Shown: one piece after another, positions 4,840 through 32,904 of the stretch
Layout: each line of letters begins with the position of its first letter
Numbering within the stretch: position 1 is the stretch's first letter
NCBI RefSeq assembly: GCF_026020075.1
Contig: NZ_CP102773.1
Coordinates: 186,001 to 250,000, forward strand
Source of the DNA: Bosea sp. NBC_00550
GTDB taxonomy: Bacteria > Pseudomonadota > Alphaproteobacteria > Rhizobiales > Beijerinckiaceae
Length of the DNA stretch: 64,000 nt
Direction: 5' to 3'
The notes under the pieces: generated by a model
What the model was told of the DNA's origin: nothing
The model's input: the letters and a program-made list of their open reading frames with translations, nothing else
Databases searched by the model: none
Position numbers and translations under genes: made by a program

Positions 4840-5492
4840 TACGCGCGGCCTTTCCGATAGAAGTCGAGCGCCTTCGTCGACGTCAGACAAATGACCAGAT
4901 AGACGACGGCGACCAGCGTATACATTTCCGTGGGCCGCCCATCGCGCGAGGCGACGATGCTCGCCGTCGTCAGGAAGTCGTGCAGCGCCACGACATAGAC
5001 TAGGGAGGTGTCCTGGAAGACGATGACGATCTGGTTCAACACCAGTGGCGTCATCGTGCGCAGAGCCTGCGGCATGACGATATGGCGCATCACTTGGCTG
5101 CGGCGCAAACCTGTCGCGAGGCCCGCCTCGGTCTGGCCCTTGCGGACATTGTTGATGCCCGCGCGGATGATCTCGCAATAAAAGGCGGCCTCGAAGAGCA
5201 CGAAGGCGACCAGCGCCGACATCAGCGAGCCGATCGGCCGGCCGATTGCCAGCGGCATCAGAAAATAAAACCAGAACAGCACCAGCACGAGCGGCAACGA
5301 ACGCATCACGGTGACATAGGCCGCGGCCGGCGCCGCGATGAGCCGGTGCGTCGACAGCCGCATCAACGCGAGGCCGAAGCCGAGGATCAGCCCGCCCACG
5401 GTCGCGACCAGCACGAGCAGGGCGCTGAGCGCCATGCCCTCGGCGAGGAAGCTCCAGGACCGAGCGATGACGCCCCAGTCGAAATGGCTCAT
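4839..5492 (-). CDS. gltK: Amino-acid ABC transporter permease (GltK-like)
   Basis: 217-residue inner-membrane permease of the HisM/GltK type, with about five hydrophobic segments. The ATG at 5492 overlaps the stop of the preceding permease by 4 bp (ATGA). Residues upstream of it in the open frame come from the neighbouring gene. The coupling-helix EAA region reads [28 protein letters not shown], typical of contacts to the ATPase. It forms the membrane pore with the 5489-6208 product. Substrate specificity cannot be read from the permease. Confidence 0.92.
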
Positions 5493-6208
5493 GTCGCAGT
5501 CTTCCGCAGGGCTGCGCCGCCGATCCTGCTGTCGATGAAGTGCATCAGCGCCGTCACGCACAGTCCGATCACCAGATAGCCGACGGTGGCGAAGGTGAAG
5601 GCCTCGAGGCCTTGGAAGGTATAGTTCTCGACATGGCGGCTCTGCGCCGTCAGCTCGAGGACGCCGATTGTCAGGCTCAGCGACGACAGCTTGATCGTGA
5701 TCAGGAACTCGGAGGTCAGCGGCCCCACGATTGCGCGAAGACCGAGCGGCAGGACGACCAGCCGGAACGCTTGCGCAGGGCGCAGGCCCGTCGCCAGCGC
5801 GGCGGGCAACAACGGACTGCCAACCGCCTCAATCCCGGCCCGGACCTGCTCCGCGACACGAGACCCCGCGAATAGCCCAATCGCGACGACCGCCGTGCTG
5901 AATTCAGGATAAGGTAGATCACGCTTAAGCCAGAGCCCGATCGTGTCAGGCACCACCTCGGGCATCACGTAGAACCACAGGAAGAGCTGGACCAGCGGCG
6001 GAATGTTGCGAAATACGTCGACATAGGCACCCGCCACCAAGCGAGCGCTCCGGCTGGGGAGGCTGCGTGCGATGCCCACCGCGACGCCGATCGTCAGCGC
6101 TAGCGCCCAGCTGGTCAGGCTGATGGAGAGCGTCCACTGCACGCCGCTCCAGAGCCACTCCCAATAGGGCTCCTGCAGGAGGATGGACCAGTTCCACCGG
6201 TAATTCAT
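5489..6208 (-). CDS. gltJ: Amino-acid ABC transporter permease (GltJ-like)
   Basis: 239-residue permease and first gene of the minus-strand run gltJ-gltK-gltL-XRE-opine dehydrogenase-gltI. Its N-terminus [20 protein letters not shown] matches GltJ/HisQ-type permeases. It carries five predicted membrane segments and an EAA loop ([20 protein letters not shown]). The ATG at 6208 has only a weak ribosome site. The promoter region upstream carries the motif at 6281-6295, and IS3-family DNA begins about 150 bp upstream, so the native upstream region may be truncated. Confidence 0.92.
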
Positions 6209-6278
6209 GCCGCAGGCACGTTGCTGCGTCGGGATTTACGAAACGCTACCACGGGCCGGTCTCCATCGAAGTCACTGA

Positions 6279-6297
6279 ATTCCACTATAGCGGAATG
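6279..6297. promoter_or_regulatory. Palindromic operator/promoter-like motif upstream of the gltJ run
   Basis: ATTCC-N8-GGAAT inverted repeat surrounding the core TCCACTATAGCGGAA (6281-6295), a near-identical copy of the site at 3485-3499. On the minus strand it reads GCTATAGT, a plausible -10 element about 75 bp from the gltJ start. It may be bound by the XRE-cupin regulator encoded in the operon. Confidence 0.55.
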
Positions 6298-6354
6298 GTG
6301 AGACCGTCCATAGTTGGTTGTCAACATGCGCTGCAACATTGAGACCATGCGCCC

Positions 6355-6682
6355 CTGTAGGTAGACAGGATCAGGCTGCGGCTTTGACGGTGAGCCGGGC
6401 TTTCGGAGGATGGAAGCCCATGGCCCGACACCGCACCCACAGCATCGAGTTCAAACGCCAGGTGGCACAGGATTACCTGGCAGGCGAGACGCTCCATAGC
6501 CTCGCCCGCCGGCACGACCTGTCACGCAACCTCGTCCGGATCTGGATCCAGAAGTTCGAGGCTGGCGCCTTCGACGACGAGGCAGTCGCCGCCGATACGA
6601 TCGAAGCCTACGAAGCGCGCATCGCCGCGCTTGAACGGCTCGTCGGCAGACAGGCTCTGGAGATCGAGTTCCTAAAGGGGGG
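6355..6682 (+). mobile_element. Truncated IS3-family element (orfA fragment)
   Basis: The ATG at 6420, with GGAGG upstream, begins MARHRTHSIEFKRQVAQDYL. This is the helix-turn-helix OrfA of an IS3-family element (LHSLARRHDLSRNLVRIWIQ), followed by its leucine-rich coil (IAALERLVGRQALEIEFLK). Similarity stops at about residue 87 (near 6682), where unrelated DNA begins. The rest of OrfA and all of OrfB, with its DDE domain, are missing. The sequence starting TGTAGGTAGACAG at 6355 is a plausible left end. It is non-functional as it stands. Confidence 0.75.
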
Positions 6683-6912
6683 TTTTGGACGGGCCATTGG
6701 CCTAGCTGGACCGGACCAGCCCGGTTCGTCTGTCTGGCCCGATGGGGAATGTGATGACCTGCGCTTCTGTTAATGGCAGCGTCGCGAGGGGCGAGAGGCT
6801 GCAAAATTTAAGGGCCGCTGAGCCCGCAAGGGAGCGCGTATCTCGCCTATCATCAAACCCGACCATTCGCTTGGGCCGCTTGCGAAGCCCGCTTGCGCAA
6901 GGATGGGATCAG

Positions 6913-7100
6913 ATGGACGCCATGACCGTTGGCAGCGATGTGTCGACGGATCGGTTGGATGCGGCGGTTCGTCCGACCAGCGAGAGCTTTATCGTCACGT
7001 GCATGGGCGCGGCGATCGACAATCTCATCGCCCCGCTCATGGCCTTGTCGCCGAAGCTAGTGGCGATCGAAGCTACCGGAGGCTTCGAGGCGGTAGTCGC
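6913..7100 (+). pseudogene. IS110-family transposase N-terminal fragment
   Basis: MDAMTVGSDVSTDRLDAAVR, then LMALSPKLVAIEATGGFEAV, is the first ~62 residues of an IS110-type transposase, with the DVS and EATGG motifs of the DEDD domain. Similarity ends at about 7100, and the next bases encode nothing related. It is a different subgroup from the copy at the window start. Confidence 0.7.
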
Positions 7101-7294
7101 TGGAAATCGCTCGGGCGATAGGTCATCGAGGGGAATTGAACGACCTCTTCAGCATGCGAATGTGTCGTCAGCTCAAGAAGGAGCATCGCCAGGGTGGAGA
7201 GCATGGCTCGCTTTGACGACGAAGGCATTTGCGAACCTCCCAGCGGTCAACCTGTCACGTCGAAAGAGAGCAACGAGAGCCTATCGGCGCCACG

Positions 7295-7370
7295 CCGCGC
7301 GTCATGACCGACAACGGCTTGGGCTCCAAAACCCATGCCTGCCGCGATCTCGGCCTGCGCCAAGTCCCTC
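7295..7370 (+). pseudogene. Possible integrase-core transposase scrap (IS481/IS3-like)
   Basis: A short frame reads RVMTDNGLGSKTHACRDLGL, resembling the second-Asp block (VMTDNGS...FR..C..LGL) of IS481/IS3-type integrase cores. Only about 25 residues match, and the flanks on both sides are unrelated. Confidence 0.4.
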
Positions 7371-7979
7371 CGGATTCAGCGCGCCTGAGCGAAAGTAACC
7401 TGCACCTGCGCGCGCCCTACCCCTCTGAATGGCCGCGAAGGGCTGTTGCGACGATGACGACCCGCTCCAAATCCGGCTCCGGCTCGACCGGGAATCCGAC
7501 GCTCTCCACGAGGATGAGTCAAAGATCGGGAGGGCGGCCGCGCGCGAATGACGAAGCCGTCTATTGAGCGTAGGATCGTGTTCGAAGCCTTCCGCCGGGA
7601 ACGCGTTTCGAGGAAAAGGGGCATGGGGCACGGCAGACGGCCTCGGTGGCGCGCTTATGACAATAGCGCCGCAGGCGGATCTCTGAGCGATCAGCGCGGT
7701 GCGCGCCGACATCTACCTCTTCGAATATTCGGACCCGCGAATTCGGCATCGGTCCGGAAATGCAATCAATTTTCGAATTAAATTGTTGCAACGACAGTCC
7801 GATCAAGGACCTGAGACGAATCATCAAGTTTTAGATTCCTTATTGATACATAATACCTGTCCTTGGTTGAATTTTGACCGTCATAAATTGCAGCAGCTGA
7901 AGCAAAGGACTTGAGTGACTGCAGCTTGAGCCAGTGCCCGAAGCAGAGGCACGCCTCGAAACAAGGGTGGAATCGACCT
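7371..7979. other. Intergenic stretch before the sugar ABC operon
   Basis: 7371-7560 is IS-derived debris with no recognisable gene. From about 7760 the composition becomes AT-rich, as expected for the promoter region of the downstream transporter. I could not place a convincing -35/-10 pair. No dedicated regulator gene lies beside this operon. Confidence 0.4.
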
Positions 7980-8720
7980 ATGCCGCTTCTGGAGCTTCAG
8001 GGCATCTCAAAGCATTTCGGTGCGATCGAAGCCCTCAAGGGCATCGATCTGGCGATCGATGCCGGCGAGGTCGTCGGTCTGATGGGCGACAATGGCGCCG
8101 GCAAATCGACATTGGTGAAGATTGTCGCCGGCAATTTTCTCCCCTCCGAGGGCGAGCTTCGCCTTGACGGCATCGTCAAGCACTTTCGCAGGCCGGTCGA
8201 CGCCCGGACCGACGGGATCGAGGTCGTCTATCAGGACCTCGCCCTGTGCGATAATCTGACTGCGGCCGCCAATGTCTTCCTCGGGCGCGAATTGAAACGC
8301 CGCATCGGTCCGCTGGTGATCCTTGACTACAAGGCGATGTACGCCCGGGCCGCAGAGCTGTTCAAGGAACTCAAGTCAGAGACCCGCCCCCGCGATCTCG
8401 TGAAATTGATGTCCGGCGGCCAGCGCCAGGCTGTGGCGATCGCGCGGACACGCCTTGCCAACGCGAAGATGGTGCTGATGGACGAGCCGACGGCGGCGAT
8501 CAGCGTTCGTCAGGTCGCCGAGGTGCTGGATCTGATCCACCGGCTCAAGGATCGCGGGATCGCCGTCGTTCTGATCAGTCACCGCATGCCGGACGTGTTC
8601 GCCGTCTGTGACCGGGTGGTCGTGATGAGGCGGGGACGCAAGGTCGCGGACAAGGCGATTGCATCGAGTTCTCCTGAAGAGGTGACCGGACTGATCACCG
8701 GCGCCATCCAGGCCGCCTGA
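7980..8720 (+). CDS. Sugar ABC transporter ATP-binding protein (ribose/fructose type, single domain)
   Basis: 246 residues from the ATG at 7980 (AGGGTGGA upstream). Walker A GDNGAGKS is at 36-43, the Q-loop near VVYQDLALCDNL, signature MSGGQRQ at 144-150 and Walker B MVLMDEP at 164-170, then a switch His in LISHRMPDVF. This is the short FrcA-like form with one nucleotide domain, not the double-domain RbsA. The signature's first residue is Met rather than Leu, which is tolerated in the family. The operon order is ATPase-permease-binding protein; the stop overlaps the next open frame (TGATG). Confidence 0.9.
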   Translation: MPLLELQGISKHFGAIEALKGIDLAIDAGEVVGLMGDNGAGKSTLVKIVAGNFLPSEGELRLDGIVKHFRRPVDARTDGIEVVYQDLALCDNLTAAANVFLGRELKRRIGPLVILDYKAMYARAAELFKELKSETRPRDLVKLMSGGQRQAVAIARTRLANAKMVLMDEPTAAISVRQVAEVLDLIHRLKDRGIAVVLISHRMPDVFAVCDRVVVMRRGRKVADKAIASSSPEEVTGLITGAIQAA

Positions 8721-8740
8721 TGCTGCGCAAGGAGCCCTCC

Positions 8741-9766
8741 ATGTCGAGCAACACATTCCGCCCGATCCCGAACATTATCGCCATCGAGGACGTCACGGGC
8801 CTGCGGGAACGGAGCCTCCTGCAGAAGCTGCTCGCGAGCCAGCCGTTCTGGGTGACGATCGCCCTGATCGCCATGATCCTCGTGATGACATGGGATCAAC
8901 CGGACGCCTTTGCCTCGGCCGACAACTTCTTTAACATCACCCGGAACTTCGCCTTCATTGGCATCATGGCGATCGGCATGACCGCCGTTATTCTCACCGG
9001 CGGCATCGATTTGTCGGTTGGGTCGATCATGGGGCTCGCCGGCGTCGTCAGCGGACTTGTCCTCCAGGCCGAGGGGCATTGGCTGCTCGCGATCTTCGCC
9101 GGCCTTCTCACCGGCGCGGCTGTCGGGGTCGTGAACGGCGTGCTGATTTCCTATGTCGGCCTACCGGCCTTCGTCGTCACGCTCGGGATGCTGTCGGGCG
9201 CCCGATCGCTTGCCATCGTCCTGTCCGAAAACAAGATGATCTACGAATTCGGCCCTTGGGGAGACACCTTCAACGCCATCGGCGGCGGGGCCATCTTCGG
9301 CATCGCCAACCCGGTCTGGGTGCTGCTCGCGCTGGCCATCATCTTCAGCATCATCCTGAACTTCACCGGCTGGGGCAATTATCTCTACGCCATCGGCAGC
9401 AACGAAAATGCCGCCCGCCTGACGGGCGTGCCGGTCCGGCGGATCAAGCTGCAGGCCTATATCGTCTCAGGCCTGACAGCCGCGCTGAGCGCCGTTCTCA
9501 TCGTCGGCTGGCAAGGCTCGGCCATCAATGCGCTCGGACAGGGCTACGAATTGCGGGTGATCGCGTCGACCGTGATCGGCGGTGCGGATCTGATGGGTGG
9601 CCAGGGCGGAGCCTACGGCGCCGTGATCGGGGCTGCGCTGATCGAGGTGATCCGCAACTCTCTGCTCATGGCCGGGGTCGATTCCAACTGGCAGGGCGCC
9701 TTCGTCGGCCTGTTCATCGTATTGGCGGTTCTGCTGCAGCGGATCCGCGGCAAGGGTTCGGCATAG
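8741..9766 (+). CDS. Sugar ABC transporter permease (RbsC/FrcC-like)
   Basis: 341 residues from the ATG at 8741, preferred because AAGGAG lies 6 bp upstream. An alternative ATG at 8720 overlaps the ATPase stop and adds 7 residues. It is a BPD_transp_2-type permease with 8-10 hydrophobic segments. The family block GMTAVILTGGIDLSVGSIMG, the loop GLPAFVVTLGMLSGARS and the C-terminal GVDSNWQGAFVGLFIVLAVL are all present. It pairs with the flanking ATPase and binding protein as a ribose/xylose/fructose-class importer. The sugar is not determinable from sequence. Confidence 0.92.
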   Translation: MSSNTFRPIPNIIAIEDVTGLRERSLLQKLLASQPFWVTIALIAMILVMTWDQPDAFASADNFFNITRNFAFIGIMAIGMTAVILTGGIDLSVGSIMGLAGVVSGLVLQAEGHWLLAIFAGLLTGAAVGVVNGVLISYVGLPAFVVTLGMLSGARSLAIVLSENKMIYEFGPWGDTFNAIGGGAIFGIANPVWVLLALAIIFSIILNFTGWGNYLYAIGSNENAARLTGVPVRRIKLQAYIVSGLTAALSAVLIVGWQGSAINALGQGYELRVIASTVIGGADLMGGQGGAYGAVIGAALIEVIRNSLLMAGVDSNWQGAFVGLFIVLAVLLQRIRGKGSA

Positions 9767-25182: not shown

Positions 25183-26706
25183 CGTTGAAAAAGTCGTCGT
25201 TGCTGCGGGTGTGAAGTCCTGATTCAGTCGTCTTGGGCGGAGGGCGGCGCGATGATGGGTGAACGGCGGGTGGCGCAGGAGGCGCTGTTCTACGAGTTCA
25301 GTCTTGAGCGTCACGTGCCGGACGATCATTGGGTGCGGTCGATAGACCGGTTCGTCGATCTTTCCGAGATCCGCGCACATCTGCGGCCGTTCTACAGCGA
25401 GATGGGTCGGCCCTCGATCGATCCGGAGCTGATGATCCGGATGCTGCTCATCGGCTATTGCTTCGGCATCCGTTCCGAGCGGCGCCTGTGCGAGGAGGTG
25501 CACCTGAACCTCGCCTATCGCTGGTTCTGCCGGCTCGGGCTTGAGGGCGACGTTCCCGATCACTCGACCTTCTCGAAGAACCGGCATGGCCGCTTCCGCG
25601 AGAGCGATCTTCTGCGTGAGCTGTTCGAGACGACCGTCCGGCGTTGCATCGAAGAAGGGCTCGTGGGCGGAGAAGGCTTCGCGGTCGATGCCAGCCTGAT
25701 CAAGGCCGATGCGAACAAGCAACGTTCCGCGGACGCCTCAGAGCTGGTCGACTGGCACGATCTCGCCCGGACGCGTCGCTCGGTGCGCGAATATCTCGAT
25801 ACGCTCGATGAGGCCGCCTGGGGCGCGGCGAGCGAGGCGAAGCCGAAGTTCGTGTCGCGCGCCGATCCGGCCGCGCAATGGACCGGCGCTTTGAAGGGGC
25901 ATGCCTTCTTCGCCTACGCCACCAACTACCTGATCGACCTCGACCACGCCGTCATCGTCGATGTCGAGGCCAGCCGCGCCATCCGGCAGGCCGAAGTCGG
26001 CTCGGCCCGGACCATGCTCGACCGAACGCAGGAGCGTTTTGGCCTCTGGCCGGCCAGGCTAGCCGCCGACAGCGCCTATGGCTCGGCCGAGAACCTCGCC
26101 TGGCTGGTGCATAAGCGCGGGATCGAGCCGCATATCCCGGTCTTCGACAAATCCCAGCGCAGCGACGGCACCTTCAGCCGCTCCGACTTCGCCTATGACC
26201 ACGCGCGCGATCGCTACACCTGCCCGGGCGGGAAGGAGTTGAGGCCGCGCCAGAAGGCCTATCGAACCGAGCGGCCGCTCGTCGATGACGAGGGCATGAT
26301 GCGTTACCGCGCCAGCAAGTTCGACTGCGACGCCTGCTCGCTGAAGCCGCAGTGCTCACCCAACATGCCCGCTCGCAAGATCCTGCGCTCGATCCATGAG
26401 GGCGCCCGCGACATGGCCAGGGACATCGCCGAGACCGACGCCTATGTCACCTCGCGGCGCGAACGGAAAAAGGTCGAGATGCTGTTTGCTCACCTCAAGC
26501 GCATCTTGCGGCTCGACCGGTTGCGACTGCGCGGACCGAATGGCGCCAGAGACGAGTTCCACCTCGCCGCAGCAGCCCAGAACCTCAGGAAGCTCGCCAA
26601 ACTCAAGCCAAACGGGCCGCAGGTCAGGCCTGCCTGACCAAGCGAAGCCCTACTCTGCTAAATCCGCTCCCCGCCAGCGCCGATCTCAGGGCCGACTTTT
26701 TCAACG
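25183..26706 (+). mobile_element. IS1182-family insertion sequence, apparently complete
   Basis: A 14-bp perfect terminal inverted repeat, CGTTGAAAAAGTCG at 25183-25196 and its complement at 26693-26706, brackets one transposase gene. Imperfect matches extend into the flanks. The element is about 1.5 kb, normal for the family. I saw no clear target duplication. It separates the cyclophilin-like gene from the haloperoxidase locus. Confidence 0.85.
25252..26637 (+). CDS. IS1182-family transposase
   Basis: 461 residues, full length. The N-terminal part is MMGERRVAQEALFYEFSLER, RPSIDPELMIRMLLIGYCFG. The DDE catalytic core contains VGGEGFAVDASLIKADANKQ (first Asp) and LAADSAYGSAENLAWLVHKR (second Asp). 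A zinc-binding-like cysteine cluster is CDACSLKPQC, and the C-terminal Glu region is RRERKKVEMLFAHLKRILRL. It catalyses transposition of the surrounding element. No lesion is visible, so it may be active. Confidence 0.93.
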   Translation: MMGERRVAQEALFYEFSLERHVPDDHWVRSIDRFVDLSEIRAHLRPFYSEMGRPSIDPELMIRMLLIGYCFGIRSERRLCEEVHLNLAYRWFCRLGLEGDVPDHSTFSKNRHGRFRESDLLRELFETTVRRCIEEGLVGGEGFAVDASLIKADANKQRSADASELVDWHDLARTRRSVREYLDTLDEAAWGAASEAKPKFVSRADPAAQWTGALKGHAFFAYATNYLIDLDHAVIVDVEASRAIRQAEVGSARTMLDRTQERFGLWPARLAADSAYGSAENLAWLVHKRGIEPHIPVFDKSQRSDGTFSRSDFAYDHARDRYTCPGGKELRPRQKAYRTERPLVDDEGMMRYRASKFDCDACSLKPQCSPNMPARKILRSIHEGARDMARDIAETDAYVTSRRERKKVEMLFAHLKRILRLDRLRLRGPNGARDEFHLAAAAQNLRKLAKLKPNGPQVRPA

Positions 26707-26967: not shown

Positions 26968-27582
26968 TCAGGCGCCGTACGGAACATAAGTCGCGACGAA
27001 GCTGACGAGCTGGCTCTGCCGGGCCGTGCCGGTTTTCGAAAAAATCCTTTGAAGATGGGTTCGTGCCGTCGTCGTCGCGATGCCCATGCGTTTGGCCGCC
27101 AGGATCGTGTCGAGGCCCTCCACCACGAGCGCCAGCATGCGCGCCTCGGCAGCGGTCAGGCAGAATGCCCGACCGATCTCGGAGAGATTGCGAGCGATAG
27201 CCCGATAGGGATCGTCCACGGTGAGGACGAAAAGATCCAGGCCGAGGCCGCCCAGATGCACGGCGTCGACCGCGACCTGCCGCCCGTCCATCATCGCCAG
27301 CGGCAGCCGTGCGGCGTCGCCGGTCGTGCCCTTGCAGCAGCGCCTGAGCCAGGTCTGCAGTCGGGCGGCAAAATTCCGGTCGGTCGAGACAAAGCGCTTC
27401 GCCGATCCAAGGCCCTCCCGAGCAAGCGCCACGCCGGCGCTGTTGCCGAAACGGATTTGCAGATCGGCGTCGATGACCAGGAAAGCTTTGGCGCCGCAAT
27501 CCAGCGCATCAAGCCCGTGATGCTCGATGCCCCAGGAGGGATGGGGCCGCGCGGAGCCGGTAGCCTGCAATGCGAACGACAT
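26968..27582 (-). CDS. PAS-like/LuxR-type helix-turn-helix regulator
   Basis: 204 residues. Residues about 20-120 look like a degenerate PAS sensor (DCGAKAFLVIDADLQIRFGN near 28). Residues about 135-200 are a LuxR-type helix-turn-helix (FCLTAAEARMLALVVEGLDT, ILAAKRMGIATTTARTHLQR, IFSKTGTARQSQLV). No phosphoacceptor receiver domain is present. It lies 3 bp after a small gene and faces away from the SARP-TolB-haloperoxidase run, making it a candidate regulator of that locus (inference). The start at 27582 is not strongly supported by a ribosome site. Confidence 0.82.
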   Translation of the reverse strand: MSFALQATGSARPHPSWGIEHHGLDALDCGAKAFLVIDADLQIRFGNSAGVALAREGLGSAKRFVSTDRNFAARLQTWLRRCCKGTTGDAARLPLAMMDGRQVAVDAVHLGGLGLDLFVLTVDDPYRAIARNLSEIGRAFCLTAAEARMLALVVEGLDTILAAKRMGIATTTARTHLQRIFSKTGTARQSQLVSFVATYVPYGA

Positions 27583-27585
27583 CAG

Positions 27586-27783
27586 CTATTCTCGCGTTAG
27601 ATCCCGGTCGCCGATCCTGTCTGCCATGCGGATCAGCCAGAGAATGGTTTCGCGCTCCTGTGAAACGAGTGCCGTTGAGCGCGAGGCCTTCACGGCGGCC
27701 TCCCGAAATTCCGACCATCTCAAATGGAAATCCGCCAAATCCCTGATGGGCATAAGTTCGACTCCGAGGGGTTTTTTAGTCAT
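27586..27783 (-). CDS. Small conserved-looking protein, function unknown
   Basis: 65 residues from the ATG at 27783, preceded by GAAGAAA. A GTG start at 27804 would add 7. The protein is charged and helical (MPIRDLADFHLRWSEFREAA, then SQERETILWLIRMADRIGDR), with no leader. I do not recognise the family. Tight spacing to the LuxR-type gene suggests co-translation, perhaps as a small partner of that regulator. Confidence 0.6.
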   Translation of the reverse strand: MTKKPLGVELMPIRDLADFHLRWSEFREAAVKASRSTALVSQERETILWLIRMADRIGDRDLTRE

Positions 27784-27804
27784 TGCGTTTTCTTCGCCAG
27801 CCAC

Positions 27805-27937
27805 AACTCGCAGCTTATTCGGCCGCCGCGGCCGCTGGCGCGTGAAAAAACCGTGAAGCGCATTGTGGTGCGTCGCGGGAGGTTGCTAATCTTTGATTGC
27901 AGCGCGGGACGCTGCGTCATGGACGGCAAGCTTCGTC
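27805..27937. promoter_or_regulatory. Divergent promoter region with 19-bp tandem duplication
   Basis: It separates the minus-strand regulator pair from the plus-strand haloperoxidase run. At its end lie two 19-base units, 27915-27933 and 27934-27952 (17 of 19 identical), each carrying GTCATGGAC. The second unit's ATG (27938) starts the SARP-TolB-TPR gene. The first unit's ATG (27919) opens a 12-codon frame ending at 27957. Confidence 0.5.
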
Positions 27938-29581
27938 ATGGACAGCAGGCTTCTTGAGATCAATCTCTTCGGCGCGTGCTCGGTTAGGTCGAGCGTGGCC
28001 GAGGGGTTCGAGATCACCGGCGCCAAGCACAAGGCTCTGTTCGTTCTGCTTGCGACCGCGCCGTTTGGCCGTCGCACGCGGTCGTTCCTGCAGGAAACGC
28101 TCTGGGGGGTGGCCTGCTACGACACGGGGCGCCAAAGCCTTCGTCGCGCGCTCGCCGACATCAAGGCCGTCATGGGCGACAGCTTCGGGGATCTCCTGAC
28201 GAGCACCAACTCAGAGGTTTCGCTGGATCTCTCGCGCGTCACCTTCCTCGGACGGTCCGGCCAAGGCGCGTTTCTGGAAGGCCTGGACATCAAGGAGGCC
28301 GGCTTCGGACAATGGCTGTCCGGCATCCGCCAGAATCCGCGGCAGCTCGACGGCCTGTTCACCCTGGCGTCGAGCGCCGCTGGCGCATCGGTGCTTCCCG
28401 CCATCGCCGTCCTGCCCTTCCGCGCCGTCGGCAACGACGTCGCCGACGCGACCATCAGCGATTGGCTGGCGGAGGAAATCTGCCGGTCGCTCAGCCGCTC
28501 GCGACTGCTCTCGGTGATCTCGCACCTGTCCTGCCGCGAGCTTGCGCGGACCGGTATCGACATCGCGCAGGTCCGCTCGTCGCTGCGCGTCGATTTCTGC
28601 GTTGCCGGGAGCCTTCGGCGGTCGGGAGGGCAACTCGTGCTGGATGCCGATTTCATCGACGTGCGCTCCGGACGCATCCTGTGGACGCGCCAGACGAGCA
28701 ATCCGATCGACAGCTTCTTCCAGGCTGCCGAGGACGGCATCGCGGCGATCGTCGGCTCAATCGGTGCCGCCATCGCCGACGAAGCGCTCAACCACGTCGC
28801 GGGCCGCCATCTGGCCGATGTGGAGGACCACCGCCTCGTCATCGCCGGCGTGCGCCTGATGAACCGGTCGACGCTTCACGACCTGGCGCGTGCGCGCGAG
28901 TTGCTGGAGGAAGCGCTGCGGCGCGCGCCTTATGTCGCCGAGACCCATGCCTGGCTCGGCAAGTGGTATTTCCTCAGCGTCTTCAACGGTTGGAGTACCG
29001 ATACAGCTGCGGAAACGCAGCATGGGATCGACTGTACCGCCCGGGCGCTCGATCTTTCGCCCGACAACGCCTTCTGCCTAACCATCGACGGGCTCGCGCA
29101 GAACAATCTCCTGAAGCGGCTCGACGTCGCCGAGCAGCGCTACGCGACTGCACTGGCGATCAATCCCAACGAGGCCCTGTCCCTGCTGTTGCGCGGCGCG
29201 CTGCACGCCTTCCGCGACGAGGGGCCGGAGGCGATCCGGTCCGTCGAGCGGGCAAGACGGCTCTCGCCGATCGACCCGTTCCGATACTTCTACGAGTCCC
29301 TGAGCGCGACCGCGTATCTGTCGGCAGGCGCCTACGAGCGCGCGCTGGAGCTGGCGGAATCTTCGCTAATGCTCAACGATCGCCATGTCTCGACGCTGCG
29401 GGCCAAGATCATCGCGCTGCATAATCTCGATCGTGGCGACGAATTGAAGGCCGCAGGGCAGCAGCTGCGGCGGCACGTGCCCGATTTCACGATCGACGGC
29501 TATCTCCGCAGCCATCCGGCCTCGGATTCGAAATTCGGCCGCAAGGCGGTGGCGGCTCTCGCCGCCGCCGGGCTTTCCTAG
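27938..29581 (+). CDS. OmpR/SARP-type regulator with TolB-like and TPR domains
   Basis: 547 residues from the ATG at 27938. A TTG at 27893 would add 15 residues. The N-terminal winged helix resembles OmpR/SARP-type activators (RLLEINLFGACSV, ITGAKHKALFVLLA, RQSLRRALADIKAVMGD). A TolB/FlgO-like domain spans about residues 150-270 (IAVLPFRAVGNDVADATISD, then VDFCVAGSLRRSGGQLVLDA and DVRSGRILWTRQ). Several TPR-like helices follow, from about 300 to the end. This is the adenylate-cyclase-neighbour architecture common in Hyphomicrobiales. No membrane segment is visible. It is likely a cytoplasmic transcription factor for the haloperoxidase and protease genes 17 and 1199 bp downstream (inference). 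Confidence 0.82.
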   Translation: MDSRLLEINLFGACSVRSSVAEGFEITGAKHKALFVLLATAPFGRRTRSFLQETLWGVACYDTGRQSLRRALADIKAVMGDSFGDLLTSTNSEVSLDLSRVTFLGRSGQGAFLEGLDIKEAGFGQWLSGIRQNPRQLDGLFTLASSAAGASVLPAIAVLPFRAVGNDVADATISDWLAEEICRSLSRSRLLSVISHLSCRELARTGIDIAQVRSSLRVDFCVAGSLRRSGGQLVLDADFIDVRSGRILWTRQTSNPIDSFFQAAEDGIAAIVGSIGAAIADEALNHVAGRHLADVEDHRLVIAGVRLMNRSTLHDLARARELLEEALRRAPYVAETHAWLGKWYFLSVFNGWSTDTAAETQHGIDCTARALDLSPDNAFCLTIDGLAQNNLLKRLDVAEQRYATALAINPNEALSLLLRGALHAFRDEGPEAIRSVERARRLSPIDPFRYFYESLSATAYLSAGAYERALELAESSLMLNDRHVSTLRAKIIALHNLDRGDELKAAGQQLRRHVPDFTIDGYLRSHPASDSKFGRKAVAALAAAGLS

Positions 29582-29598
29582 AAGATCCGGGGAACGAC

Positions 29599-30753
29599 AT
29601 GTCGAGTGCAGGCGGTATCGGTGGAATCGGCGGGATAGGCGGCATCGGTGGAATTGGAGGCATAGGTGGTATAGGAGGCATAGGCGCGACGGGCGTCGGT
29701 CCCTTCGTTCCGGGCGGCGGTGCCAATCCGCTTCTGGCCCAGGGTTTGACCATCAACGCCCAGGCGATCGGTCATATCGGCGGCGTCGACGATACGGGCA
29801 ACTCGGCAGAGGGCAGCTATGCCGAGCTTCCGGTCGGGCCGGCCGCGAACATGGACAGCTGGGCCGCATGGGTGCGCGCCTCGCTTTATCTCAGCGACGT
29901 TCTGAAGCGCCTCGACTGGACTCCCAGCAAGCGGCGAAGTGCGGCTGGAACGGAAGCCTTCAACGGGATCGAGATGACCTATGGTCCAAAGCCGCTCGTC
30001 ACCCTGCAACGACCGAGCGTCGATCTCTTTCGGCGGCAGCTTCGCCACATCCGCGCCTATGCCGACCAGCGCGCCGACAGGGCGCCGGAGATCCTCACGC
30101 AGGTCGGTTATCCCGTCGATTATTTCGCCAGCGTACTCGGACTGAACGCCGATGCCAACAAGTCGACCTTTGAACTCATCGGCATCACGCAGGTCGTCAC
30201 CTCGCATGTGGCGATGGTCGCCAAGCATCATCTTGCCTGTCGGCGGCCCGACCGTCTCGGTGCGACGACGATGGCGATGATCCCGACGCCGGCGCATGGG
30301 ACCTTTCCGAGCGCCCATGCGGCGGAGGCCTTCGCGGTCGCGACCGTGCTGGAAGGCCTGCTCAGGAAACTGGATGCCAAGCCGCCGGCCGAGCACCACT
30401 TTCCCCAAAGCGGGCGGCTGATCAGACTGCTCTACAAGCAGGCGGAAAGGATCGCGGTCAATCGGACCGTCGCAGGCGTCCATTATCCAATCGACAGCTG
30501 GGCCGGCGCCGCGCTCGGCGAGGCGGTCGGCCAAATTATACTGGCCAAATGCCAGGGTGGCGACGTCACACCCCGGACCTACGAGGCCAAGGACGCCGAC
30601 TTCCTGCTCGCCGACTTCCTCCCACGCATAACTGGCGGCATCGGCGATCCCGCGGCGAAGGGACTGCTGCGGGCGGCCTCGGGCAATCCTTTCCCGAGCA
30701 GTCCGCTGTTCGCCTGGCTCTGGGGCAAGGCCCTGAACGAGTTCAAACTCTGA
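29599..30753 (+). CDS. Vanadium-dependent haloperoxidase/PAP2-family enzyme with N-terminal Gly-Gly-Ile repeats
   Basis: 384 residues. The full vanadate/phosphate-binding motif of the vanadium haloperoxidase and acid phosphatase superfamily is present with correct spacing: Lys209-x6-Arg216-Pro217, Pro237-Ser-Ala-His240 and Arg289-x5-His295-x3-Asp299. Residues 5-28 are eight perfect Gly-Gly-Ile triplets. No signal peptide is visible. Members oxidise halides with peroxide, or hydrolyse phosphate esters; sequence alone does not decide which. The canonical PSGH is PSAH here. The gene starts 17 bp after the TPR regulator and is followed 27 bp later by a subtilase, suggesting one operon. Confidence 0.88.
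   Translation: MSSAGGIGGIGGIGGIGGIGGIGGIGGIGATGVGPFVPGGGANPLLAQGLTINAQAIGHIGGVDDTGNSAEGSYAELPVGPAANMDSWAAWVRASLYLSDVLKRLDWTPSKRRSAAGTEAFNGIEMTYGPKPLVTLQRPSVDLFRRQLRHIRAYADQRADRAPEILTQVGYPVDYFASVLGLNADANKSTFELIGITQVVTSHVAMVAKHHLACRRPDRLGATTMAMIPTPAHGTFPSAHAAEAFAVATVLEGLLRKLDAKPPAEHHFPQSGRLIRLLYKQAERIAVNRTVAGVHYPIDSWAGAALGEAVGQIILAKCQGGDVTPRTYEAKDADFLLADFLPRITGGIGDPAAKGLLRAASGNPFPSSPLFAWLWGKALNEFKL
29611..29682 (+). repeat. Tandem 9-bp repeat encoding (Gly-Gly-Ile)x8
   Basis: Eight consecutive 9-base units, each encoding Gly-Gly-Ile. The units differ at third positions (GGC/GGT/GGA/GGG and ATC/ATT/ATA), so the repeat is conserved as protein more than as DNA. Confidence 0.9.
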
Positions 30754-30780
30754 CGTTGCAGTCGCGGGAGCGCTCGGATC

Positions 30781-32904
30781 ATGTCGCCAGACCAGCCGGG
30801 ATCGGAGCGTCGCCCGCAGCTGACGGGCGCCTATGAGGAATGGACCTACGGGGCCGGCGCCGCCTATGCCAATCCGGAGGTGCCGCCCGCCGACACACGC
30901 TTCGTCAGCGCCATCGTCCGTCTTCCGCCGGGCGCACAACTCCGTGATTTCGCCGATGGGATCGAGACCAGAACCGCGAGCCGTGGCGAGCCGCTGGTCG
31001 CAAAGCTTCGACGTCCCCTGGTTTGGGGTGATCTTTCGACGACGGACCAGGCAACCTTCTGGCCGGTCGTGCTGGATTTCCAAGGCGGCGAACGCGACGA
31101 ATTCGACATCTCGCGCATCGGCAGGGCGCTCGACGCACTGAGCCAGCCGGTTCGTCGCGCCTCGGCGGCGAATGGGGCCGAGGGCGAGCCGTCATTCGCG
31201 CTCGGCCCGCCGATGCTGGCCCACAGCGTGCAAGACGACGTAGCCGGCACGCTGTCCTACGCGGCCGATCCCGGCCTGCTCGCCAAGCTGGCTGCGGGCG
31301 GCAAGGCGGTGATCGTGGCAGTGATCGACGACGGCATTCCGTTCGCCCATCGCAACCTCCGGGTCGCCGATGGCGACGGCTCGCGCGTCGAGTTCTGCTG
31401 GCTGCAATCGGCGGAGGCGAACCCGAGCGGCCATGTCCCGTTCGGCCGCGAGTTCACGCGCGGCGCGATCGACGAACTCGTGCGCGCACACGGACCGGAC
31501 GAGGATGCGATCTATCTCAGGGCGGGTGCCGTCGAACAGGGCGCGCGGCGTATTGCAACGATCAATCACGCCGCCAGCCACGGTGCGCATGTTCTCGACG
31601 CGGCAGCCGGCCGCAGGCCCGACGATGGCGGGGTTGATCTCGACCTGCTGCGCATCATCGCGGTCCAGCTGCCGGCCGCGGTCACTGCGGATACCTCGGG
31701 ATATCGCAAGGACGCGTTCATCCTCAGCGCCCTGCACTACATCTTCGACCGGGCCGACCGGTTTGCCGCGACTCATCCTGGCGATGAAGCTGCATCGCTG
31801 CCGCTGATCGTCAACCTCAGCTACGGATACACCGGCGGCCCGCACGATGGCACCGACGCGCTCGAAATTGCGATGTCGCGAATGATCGAAGCACGGCAGG
31901 CGCAGGGAAAGCCGACGACGCTCGTCATGCCGGCCGGCAACAGCTTTGCCGAGCGGTTGAACGGAGAAATTTCCGCGGACCGGATGAACACCGGCGAGGC
32001 ACATGCGATCGCCTGGTGCCTGCAACCCAATGATCGTACATCGAGCTATCTCGAGCTCTGGTTGCCGAAGGCGACCGGCGCGACCCGTTTCCAGCTGTCG
32101 ATCACAGATCCGGACGGCGCCTCGTCCTTGACGGGCGCGACGCTGCTCGCGGATTGCGCGGCGGCGGATCAGCAAGGCGACGCGCCCGCCTTATCGAGCG
32201 ACGTTTTCTGCGGCGAGCAACGCGTCGGCGGCGTCGTGATCGCTGCCTACAACGCTCATTGGACCCGAATTCTGATTGCGCTCGCTCCCACCGAGCCCGA
32301 CGATGCCAGCCTGTCCGCAGCCCCGGCCGGCCGATGGACGATCGGCTTGGCCAAGGTTGGGGGCGCCGATCTGAACGCTCCGGTGGGCTGCCGCATCCAG
32401 CGCGATTTCGATCCGTTCGGTTATGCGAGGGGCGCTCGCCAGAGCTATTTCGATGATCCGCTGGATGCGCGTTTCACCGAAGACGGGGCGCCCGCGCGGG
32501 TGGACAACCCGGCACCGGCGTTCGTGCGGCGGCTGGGCACATTGAACGGCATCGCCACGCACGCGCATGTAACTGTCGTCAGCGGCTATTACGGCGATAC
32601 CGGCCGGGCGACGGAGTATGCCGGTGCCGGGCGACGGCGCAGGCCCGGTTCATCCGCCGGCCCCGGAGACGTCCGCATGTCGGCGGCTTCGGACGATTCC
32701 ACGGCGTTGCGCGGCGTGCTCGCCGCCGGGACACGCAGCGGAAGCACGGCGAGACTGTCGGGAACGAGCATGGCGGCCCCGCAGATTTCGCGCTGGATCG
32801 CAGTTCAACACCTGTCGCAAAACCCGATGCCGGCCCAGCCCGTCCCGCTGACGTTTCCGTCTGGCCCAATCGAGCTCGACGAGAGAACGACGCGCCTGAG
32901 CTAA
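30781..32904 (+). CDS. Subtilisin-like (S8) serine protease, leaderless
   Basis: 707 residues. The catalytic triad is Asp183 (VIDDGIPFAH), His267 (SHGAHVLDAAAG) and Ser663 (SGTSMAAP), with oxyanion Asn387 (MPAGNS). About 180 residues precede the protease domain, and a long insert with a beta-rich segment (about 400-560) separates Asn and Ser. There is no signal peptide, in contrast to most subtilases, so it is cytoplasmic or leaves by a non-classical route. It follows the haloperoxidase-family gene by 27 bp. Processing of that protein's repeat tail is conceivable but unsupported beyond adjacency. Confidence 0.9.
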   Translation: MSPDQPGSERRPQLTGAYEEWTYGAGAAYANPEVPPADTRFVSAIVRLPPGAQLRDFADGIETRTASRGEPLVAKLRRPLVWGDLSTTDQATFWPVVLDFQGGERDEFDISRIGRALDALSQPVRRASAANGAEGEPSFALGPPMLAHSVQDDVAGTLSYAADPGLLAKLAAGGKAVIVAVIDDGIPFAHRNLRVADGDGSRVEFCWLQSAEANPSGHVPFGREFTRGAIDELVRAHGPDEDAIYLRAGAVEQGARRIATINHAASHGAHVLDAAAGRRPDDGGVDLDLLRIIAVQLPAAVTADTSGYRKDAFILSALHYIFDRADRFAATHPGDEAASLPLIVNLSYGYTGGPHDGTDALEIAMSRMIEARQAQGKPTTLVMPAGNSFAERLNGEISADRMNTGEAHAIAWCLQPNDRTSSYLELWLPKATGATRFQLSITDPDGASSLTGATLLADCAAADQQGDAPALSSDVFCGEQRVGGVVIAAYNAHWTRILIALAPTEPDDASLSAAPAGRWTIGLAKVGGADLNAPVGCRIQRDFDPFGYARGARQSYFDDPLDARFTEDGAPARVDNPAPAFVRRLGTLNGIATHAHVTVVSGYYGDTGRATEYAGAGRRRRPGSSAGPGDVRMSAASDDSTALRGVLAAGTRSGSTARLSGTSMAAPQISRWIAVQHLSQNPMPAQPVPLTFPSGPIELDERTTRLS

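Follow-up and report, generated by a model that had tools for sequence, protein, structure and literature searches.

The window analysed here is a 64,000-nucleotide stretch of Bosea sp. NBC_00550 (contig NZ_CP102773.1, positions 186,001 to 250,000), and it carries a three-gene module encoding a winged-helix, TolB-like and TPR regulator, a PAP2-fold enzyme and a subtilase. Following a short leader, the N-terminus of the PAP2-fold enzyme is a homogeneous amino-acid repeat, and across related loci the unit of this tail changes in step with a few residues of the regulator, suggesting that the regulator reads the repeat. The tail, the main feature of the locus, was absent from the first-pass annotation of the window, which had described the run of regulator, enzyme and subtilase, spaced by 17 and 27 bp, together with two divergent genes, one for a small protein and one of LuxR type; open reading frames and Pfam matches agree with that layout. 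In our best reading, to which the sequence evidence gives about an even chance, a site in the TPR region of the regulator would bind the tail of its own PAP2 protein, cutting by the protease would be the switch, and the head of the regulator would give the output.

Scanning genome contigs with a profile of the PAP2 alignment gave 480 relatives. The best 80 of these 480 were examined and, with the window, form the 81-locus set (L numbers below denote loci, G numbers genomes). An automatic repeat search detected the tail in 79 of the 81, the remaining two being L015, with the compound repeat GGVGGVGPM, and L057, with its repeat in another frame. There were 23 unit strings, or 21 once rotations were merged, headed by GGF (19 loci), GGI (14), GGL (13) and GGV (10); rarer units are GGT, SGT, NGL, NGA, HAS, HAA, TGL, QGL, MHG, TGA and TAM, along with units of four residues, SGGY among them. 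The repeat is near perfect in amino acids while its codons are scrambled in most loci (in the window, 4 of 22 neighbouring-unit codons are identical). Against shuffles made within unit positions, neighbouring units shared fewer codons than chance (522 of 1962 versus 669 ± 17) and units two apart shared more (658 of 1718 versus 582 ± 16), the z-values of both comparisons being inflated because the loci are related. This combination makes the tail unusual in itself, and it rules out a DNA microsatellite for most loci. In seven of the 79 loci, neighbouring codons match in half or more of cases and the tail looks as if amplified recently; in L079 none of 34 is identical, partly via an 18-bp two-unit repeat. 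The unit switches readily among relatives: of 83 locus pairs with PAP2 bodies at least 75% identical, 41 carry different units, the closest being L076 (SAGV) and L077 (SGGY), with bodies 96.8% identical. Four Phaeobacter plasmids share the unit NSF and vary in its copy number (5, 6, 6 and 7). A different kind of repeat, of Thr-Lys or Asn-Lys dipeptides, lies about 60-100 residues into the PAP2 protein beside a different S8 subtilase in L130 (7932-8846), L180 (5571-6590) and L181 (5349-6296).

For the 56 loci with GGF, GGI, GGL or GGV tails, we calculated the normalised association of the variable tail residue X with every alignment column. Three regulator columns stood out, at residues 533 (0.63), 537 (0.58) and 489 (0.51); the next regulator column reached 0.41, and the maxima elsewhere were 0.38 in the PAP2 body and 0.40 in the subtilase. 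In the order 489-533-537, the residues read A-[L/I/F]-A with GGI, A-[L/M]-V with GGV, [T/S/V]-[I/V/A/S]-[V/M/S] with GGL and [T/S/V/I]-[T/S/A]-[V/I/L] with GGF; T-F-A accompanies GGT in two lineages and S-F-A accompanies SGT. Residue 489 is exceptional in L079 (V with GGI) and L083 (I with GGV), two cyclase-headed loci of a Hydrogenophaga-type group that obey the pattern at 533 and 537. When relatives with at least 75, 65 or 55% PAP2 identity were removed, X was predicted correctly from the three residues in 51/56, 49/56 and 47/56 loci, respectively, compared with 22% correct on average, and 56% at most, for 400 random triplets of variable regulator columns at the 65% exclusion. The same relation appeared in pairs of loci with PAP2 bodies at least 80% identical, many of which have relatives in common: at least one of the three residues is different in all 37 pairs whose units differ (mean 1.89, expected 0.42) and in 5 of the 38 pairs with equal units (mean 0.13, expected 0.30). 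On a tree of PAP2 and subtilase (77 loci, 152 branches, 36 of them with a unit change), 23 of the 32 changes at residue 533 and 15 of the 23 at residue 537 fell on unit-changing branches, with p values, before correction for 1191 columns, of 2.5e-11 and 3.8e-6; the best other column anywhere had p 1.3e-4, and residue 489 was outside the top 14. Taken together, the three residues show one change or more on 32 of the 36 unit-changing branches and on 26 of the 116 others. Beyond the set, L215 (GGL, S-V-V) and the GSF locus L217 (I-T-V, like GGF) fit the pattern.

Such covariation would also arise if recombination carried the 3' end of the regulator gene and the adjacent tail-coding DNA together, and both sites do lie within about 0.3 kb (window 29402-29685). 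However, the columns around 533 and 537 are low (0.07-0.37), values above 0.4 occur at just three positions in the final 68 regulator columns, with one position 44 residues upstream of the other two, and PAP2 body columns stay at or below 0.38. Because the neighbouring columns are low, simple co-transfer of adjacent DNA is argued against, and we see little room for a linkage artefact. Still less probable is a tail that serves as a structural spacer or polymerising segment, for instance a polyglycine-type helix, with a neutrally drifting unit: most units are indeed Gly-rich with period 3, but HAS, QTQ, DAR, NK and four-residue units exist, and neutral drift sits badly with the 37/37 concordance of close pairs with the regulator residues.

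The genes around the tail are strongly conserved as a group. The first-pass annotation had staked its proposal of a joint module on whether homologues of the two enzyme genes are adjacent elsewhere or never so, and in all 80 loci examined (the best 80 of 480) a subtilase match (A2-type) lies directly downstream of the PAP2 gene on the same strand, counting L022, where just its start precedes the contig end, and L023, where it spans two frames. The regulator lies upstream on the same strand in 79/79 loci with upstream DNA, the window included (77 called by clustering, and L055 and L061 by hidden Markov model; L052 and L087 begin at the PAP2 gene); that of L057 is split over two frames. The hosts of the 80 loci are Alphaproteobacteria, Hydrogenophaga, another Betaproteobacteria bin and one Gammaproteobacteria bin. 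The reverse test covered 149 genomes from the family to which the window belongs. Strong matches, taken as E <= 1e-60 for the subtilase and E <= 1e-30 for PAP2, numbered 8 for each enzyme and proved to be the same 8 adjacent pairs; the other 141 genomes have neither enzyme at that level, and weaker partnerless matches exist. Distance matrices agree at r 0.95 for PAP2 and subtilase, 0.87 for PAP2 and regulator and 0.84 for subtilase and regulator. In a protein search, the nearest relative of the enzyme came from Bosea sp. PAMC 26642 (82% identity over 92%). The three genes are annotated singly in plasmid records, some of them conjugative, of Phaeobacter inhibens (two) and P. piscinae, and also lie on plasmids of P. 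gallaeciensis, Microvirga and Terrarubrum.

The search was then widened, with a broad alignment (A5), to 398 genomes sampled across the phylum, giving 24 strong matches (E <= 1e-30) with the window's genome left out; flanks were taken for these and for the next 12 matches (E 1e-21 to 1e-13). The tail and, within the same gene group, a TolB/TPR regulator accompany all 24 strong matches; a protease accompanies 23, namely 21 S8 (those of L178, L180, L181 and L182 recognised through Pfam only) and 2 A4/G1, whereas tail, regulator and protease were each found in 0/12 of the weaker matches. The tail did not itself select 6 of the 24, because these align only from profile position 67-100 onward. Gene order and strand are more variable in this sample than in the 80 loci (e.g. 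L176, L177, L178, L183). In a further class sample, new to the analysis, 8/8 matches have the tail (weak in L207) and the regulator, with an S8 protease in 3/8 and A4/G1 in 3/8; the other two are L207 and L211. The protease class is exchangeable between S8 and the unrelated A4/G1. All eight A4/G1-linked tails observed have [T/A][G/S]N units (L124, L125, L126, L168, L173, L205, L209, L210) and none of the S8-linked tails has one; the eight loci are probably one clade. In L207 (6870-7514), a papain-like gene (C70/C39_2, below cut-off) converges on a PAP2 gene with a short EGGG repeat and could represent a third protease class.

The window's genome contains three PAP2 matches at E <= 1e-30. Besides the window module, these are a second module, L124 (G000:C1:3372000-3388000, 5206-9285), with a cyclase-headed TolB/TPR regulator, a PAP2 protein bearing (TGN)6 and a Peptidase_A4/G1 (E 1.6e-23), and a remnant, L128 (match C2:367255-367946; 6884-8091 of G000:C2:360000-376000), in which PAP2 extends over two frames and tail, regulator and protease are all lacking, and which looks like a decayed copy. 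The PAP2/A4-G1 architecture of L124 recurs in L125 (same genus) and L126 (same family), and L127 and L130 are PAP2 modules with other S8 subtilases. In the six genomes observed to have two modules, the two units always differ: GGI/TGN (G000), GGF/NAE (G243), TAM/GNQ (G476), NSF/GLGL (G259), NAD/TSN (G615) and GSF/EGGG (G875, the last a weak run), as insulation between modules would predict.

The regulator head is likewise exchangeable: 70 of 79 regulators have a winged helix and 9 (L075-L081, L083, L084) have class III nucleotidyl cyclase motifs, Guanylate_cyc PF00211 being detected in L075 and L084, and both types sit on the same TolB/TPR body. The winged-helix head profile matched solved ToxR-type winged helices at E 0.003. 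In the window regulator, Pfam gave weak HilA-type and TolB matches and TPR matches below cut-off only; the TPR region is matched by TPR profiles. A BTAD domain had no match in the window regulator and was found in that of L207 (PF03704, E 8.5e-23). With an iterated hidden Markov model, the small divergent protein was detected, among loci of the 81-locus set with enough upstream DNA, beside 67/67 winged-helix-headed and 0/8 cyclase-headed regulators. In the phylum sample it does not accompany all winged-helix heads and so is no obligate partner of them: outside the set it occurs in L171, L208, L215 and L217 and not in the winged-helix-headed L164, L170, L172 and L174. In L041 (6659-7175) it is present in two tandem copies upstream of one module.

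The enzyme belongs to the PAP2 family (PF01569, 41.8 bits; cut-off 27.2), and the complete haloperoxidase-family motif reported in the first-pass annotation, K-x6-RP, PSxH and R-x5-H-x3-D, was recovered at residues 209-217, 237-240 and 289-299. A 24-sequence alignment including the window shows no variation at K209, R216, P237, S238, H240, R289, H295 and D299 and almost none at P217; the window reads PSAH where PSGH is usual. This motif does not single out a haloperoxidase, because PAP2 phosphatases share it. Folds were predicted for this enzyme and the subtilase; by profile and by fold the enzyme appears nearer to acid phosphatases than to haloperoxidases. Known haloperoxidases have a Trp three residues before the Lys, and the enzyme has Met206 there, as does the aligned acid phosphatase. 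A match to VCPO_2nd (PF22778), considered as proof of a haloperoxidase, was not reproduced. A secretion signal is typical of class A acid phosphatases; the enzyme shares their PAP2 domain and, as the earlier annotation also had it for both enzymes, its N-terminus and that of the subtilase, judged by eye, do not resemble a signal peptide. Of the halogenation/phosphatase-protease module proposed there, the conserved enzyme pair stands and halogenation as its function is not supported. That the two products act jointly on a target through halogenation or phosphatase activity is the least probable of the explanations weighed here, given the apparent nearness to acid phosphatases in profile and fold, the lack of a visible signal peptide and Met206 in place of the Trp.

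The subtilase matches Peptidase_S8 (PF00082, 29.3 bits; cut-off 21.8), with D183, H267, N387 and S663 invariant among 28 sequences including the window; we take D183, H267 and S663 to be the triad and N387 the oxyanion residue. In L164, L170 and L177 the active serine lies in GSS, not GTS, with the Asp and His motifs present. The predicted structure of the window subtilase is closest, among solved folds, to Csp germination protease, including prodomain and inserted beta domain, at 13-19% identity, and has the Csp arrangement of prodomain, subtilase and jelly-roll. Such a protease could strip the tail to activate or release a zymogen-like PAP2 enzyme, with the regulator controlling expression only; this we consider very unlikely, as it leaves unexplained why the tail unit tracks regulator residues, why the tail is homogeneous and why its unit switches.

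In the reading that we prefer, residues 489, 533 and 537 would border a binding site for the repeat unit where the TPR region ends, and the PAP2 tail would be a multivalent ligand of its own regulator. Cutting of the tail by the protease would alter how much of the regulator the enzyme retains, and this change would be converted by the head into transcription or a second messenger, the head being a winged helix or a nucleotidyl cyclase. TPRs are described as binders of short peptides (PMC10075063). A homogeneous unit fits a repeated ligand, and unit switching fits insulation. More tentatively, and at rather less than an even chance, the modules may embody a repeat code, in which a lineage-specific tail is read through a three-residue site and written by an interchangeable protease, and unit and site switch together to give insulated modules, that is, peptide-TPR signalling built into an enzyme in Pseudomonadota.

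Several observations weigh against the tail-binding reading. The three positions were chosen and tested on largely the same loci, and their placement, close to where the TPR region ends and within the C-terminal helix, is itself inferred from sequence. Outside the set, the GGF loci L162 and L163 (V at 533, F at 537) and the GGI locus L093 (W at 537) do not fit, so the code is clade-dependent and not universal. Summed pocket volume correlates with tail side-chain volume at rho -0.27 (p 0.04) over 59 loci and rho -0.32 (p 0.14) over 23 unique combinations, too weak a relation for simple size complementarity between the tail residue and the three regulator residues. No subtilase column was matched to the tail unit among the 56 loci (highest value 0.40, close to the 0.38 reached in the PAP2 body), and for that reason the protease step is drawn from linkage only. 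Furthermore, L184 has no recognised protease, L207 only the sub-threshold papain-like neighbour (C70/C39) and L211 only an M24-family neighbour, and L129 (same genus) has regulator and PAP2 with the tail lacking. At L129 (3738-7137), a subtilase gene and then a metallo-beta-lactamase-like gene converge on the tail-less PAP2/regulator pair, possibly a different system.

The tail might instead be a multi-copy precursor from which the protease frees short peptides, such as GGI units, that bind the TPR region inside the cell or after export, in the manner of RRNPP systems, with unit switching as signal diversification. This would account equally for the covariation of tail and regulator, for the almost constant co-encoding of a protease with the tail, and for units that are identical within a tail and switch fast among close relatives (L076/L077). 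However, the PAP2 protein has no visible export signal, the subtilase is unmatched to the unit, no transporter occupies a fixed position by the module (ABC ATPases occur, scattered, in 20 loci), and tripeptides fall below the length of the known RRNPP peptides, so that free-peptide signalling appears unlikely.

The features of the locus are collected below. The LuxR-type gene, although divergent as first described, is rejected as a module member: a close match (87%) occurs in 1/80 loci only (L008), away from the module there, and three further LuxR-type matches across the 80 loci have 25-27% identity only. In the window (26968-27783) this gene follows the small-protein gene, and in L008 (9878-10677) the 87% identical LuxR gene follows a second small-protein copy; given the same arrangement in both, the two genes may travel as a pair. 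An insertion-sequence-type transposase (DUF772 and DDE domains) lies shortly upstream of the module at 25252-26637. The window's contig, C2 (186001-250000 thereof), has 580,662 bases beside a sister contig, C1, of 5.69 Mb, and from these sizes may be a megaplasmid or chromid.

Features of the module and its divergent neighbours, in window coordinates
Feature	Position	Strand	Remarks
LuxR-type protein	26968..27582	-	GerE 31.2 bits (cut-off 23.5)
Small protein, 65 residues, motif D(L)xDFxxRW...WLIxxADRxGxxDL	27586..27783	-	Divergent from regulator
Regulator, 547 residues (ATG 27938)	27938..29581	+	OmpR/SARP-like winged helix, TolB-like domain, TPR region
Codon for Ala489 of the regulator (first tail-matching position)	29402..29404	+	
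Codon for Phe533 of the regulator (second tail-matching position)	29534..29536	+	
Codon for Ala537 of the regulator (third tail-matching position)	29546..29548	+	
PAP2/vanadium-haloperoxidase-fold enzyme, 384 residues, active-site motif intact	29599..30753	+	
Homogeneous repeat tail at PAP2 N-terminus, (Gly-Gly-Ile)8-Gly	29611..29685	+	Scrambled codons
Subtilase (S8), 707 residues, full triad	30781..32904	+	Csp-like fold: prodomain and inserted beta domain

The open-access literature searched, outside which most subscription papers lie, contains no description of the module, in keeping with the first annotator's remark that no described system is known to combine these parts. One candidate, a paper on Bradyrhizobium self-suppression tried since some members are Bradyrhizobium, was dropped, the terms haloperoxidase, peptidase, phosphatase, operon and TPR being absent from the available part of PMC11896636. 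The module is a new kind, with a putative recognition code that can be tested. If the reading is true, it would represent a new signalling principle with a readable code, in which the unit is legible from DNA and three regulator residues track it, and a peptide-protein code could be tested directly for its specificity, its insulation and its evolution. It would also give a framework for genes annotated merely as 'phosphatase PAP2 family protein', 'S8 family serine peptidase' and 'winged helix-turn-helix domain-containing protein', including those on conjugative Phaeobacter plasmids.

Each part of the module resembles a known system and departs from it. Class A acid phosphatases and vanadium haloperoxidases share the active-site motif and helical fold of the enzyme, which differs in its extra N-terminal region and tail, its lack of a visible signal peptide and the regulator and protease encoded beside it. 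SARP/HilA-type regulators and TolB/TPR class III cyclases have the same combinations of winged helix, TolB-like domain and TPR, or of cyclase and TPR; in the module, a single conserved TolB/TPR body bears either type of head, next to the same pair of enzymes. The Csp/SleC system of Clostridia provides the closest solved fold for the subtilase, with its prodomain and inserted beta domain, and Csps cut SleC at a single site (PMC3567191). The module differs from it in sequence (13-19% identity), in its hosts, Alpha-, Beta- and Gammaproteobacteria that are not spore formers, and in its context, where a regulator and a repeat-tailed PAP2-fold enzyme take the place of cspBAC/sleC. Finally, in the RRNPP systems of Firmicutes, TPR receptors bind short peptides encoded by an adjacent gene (PMC10075063), and the peptide source adjoins the gene of a TPR-containing intracellular receptor, much as the window regulator gene lies upstream of the tailed gene. 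Whereas RRNPP propeptides are 10-100 residues long and exported, and their receptors have 250-500 residues (PMC10075063), the repeats of the module are the N-terminus of a 384-residue enzyme without a visible signal peptide and with a co-encoded protease, and the regulator has 547 residues, a TolB-like domain, exchangeable heads and hosts among Pseudomonadota.

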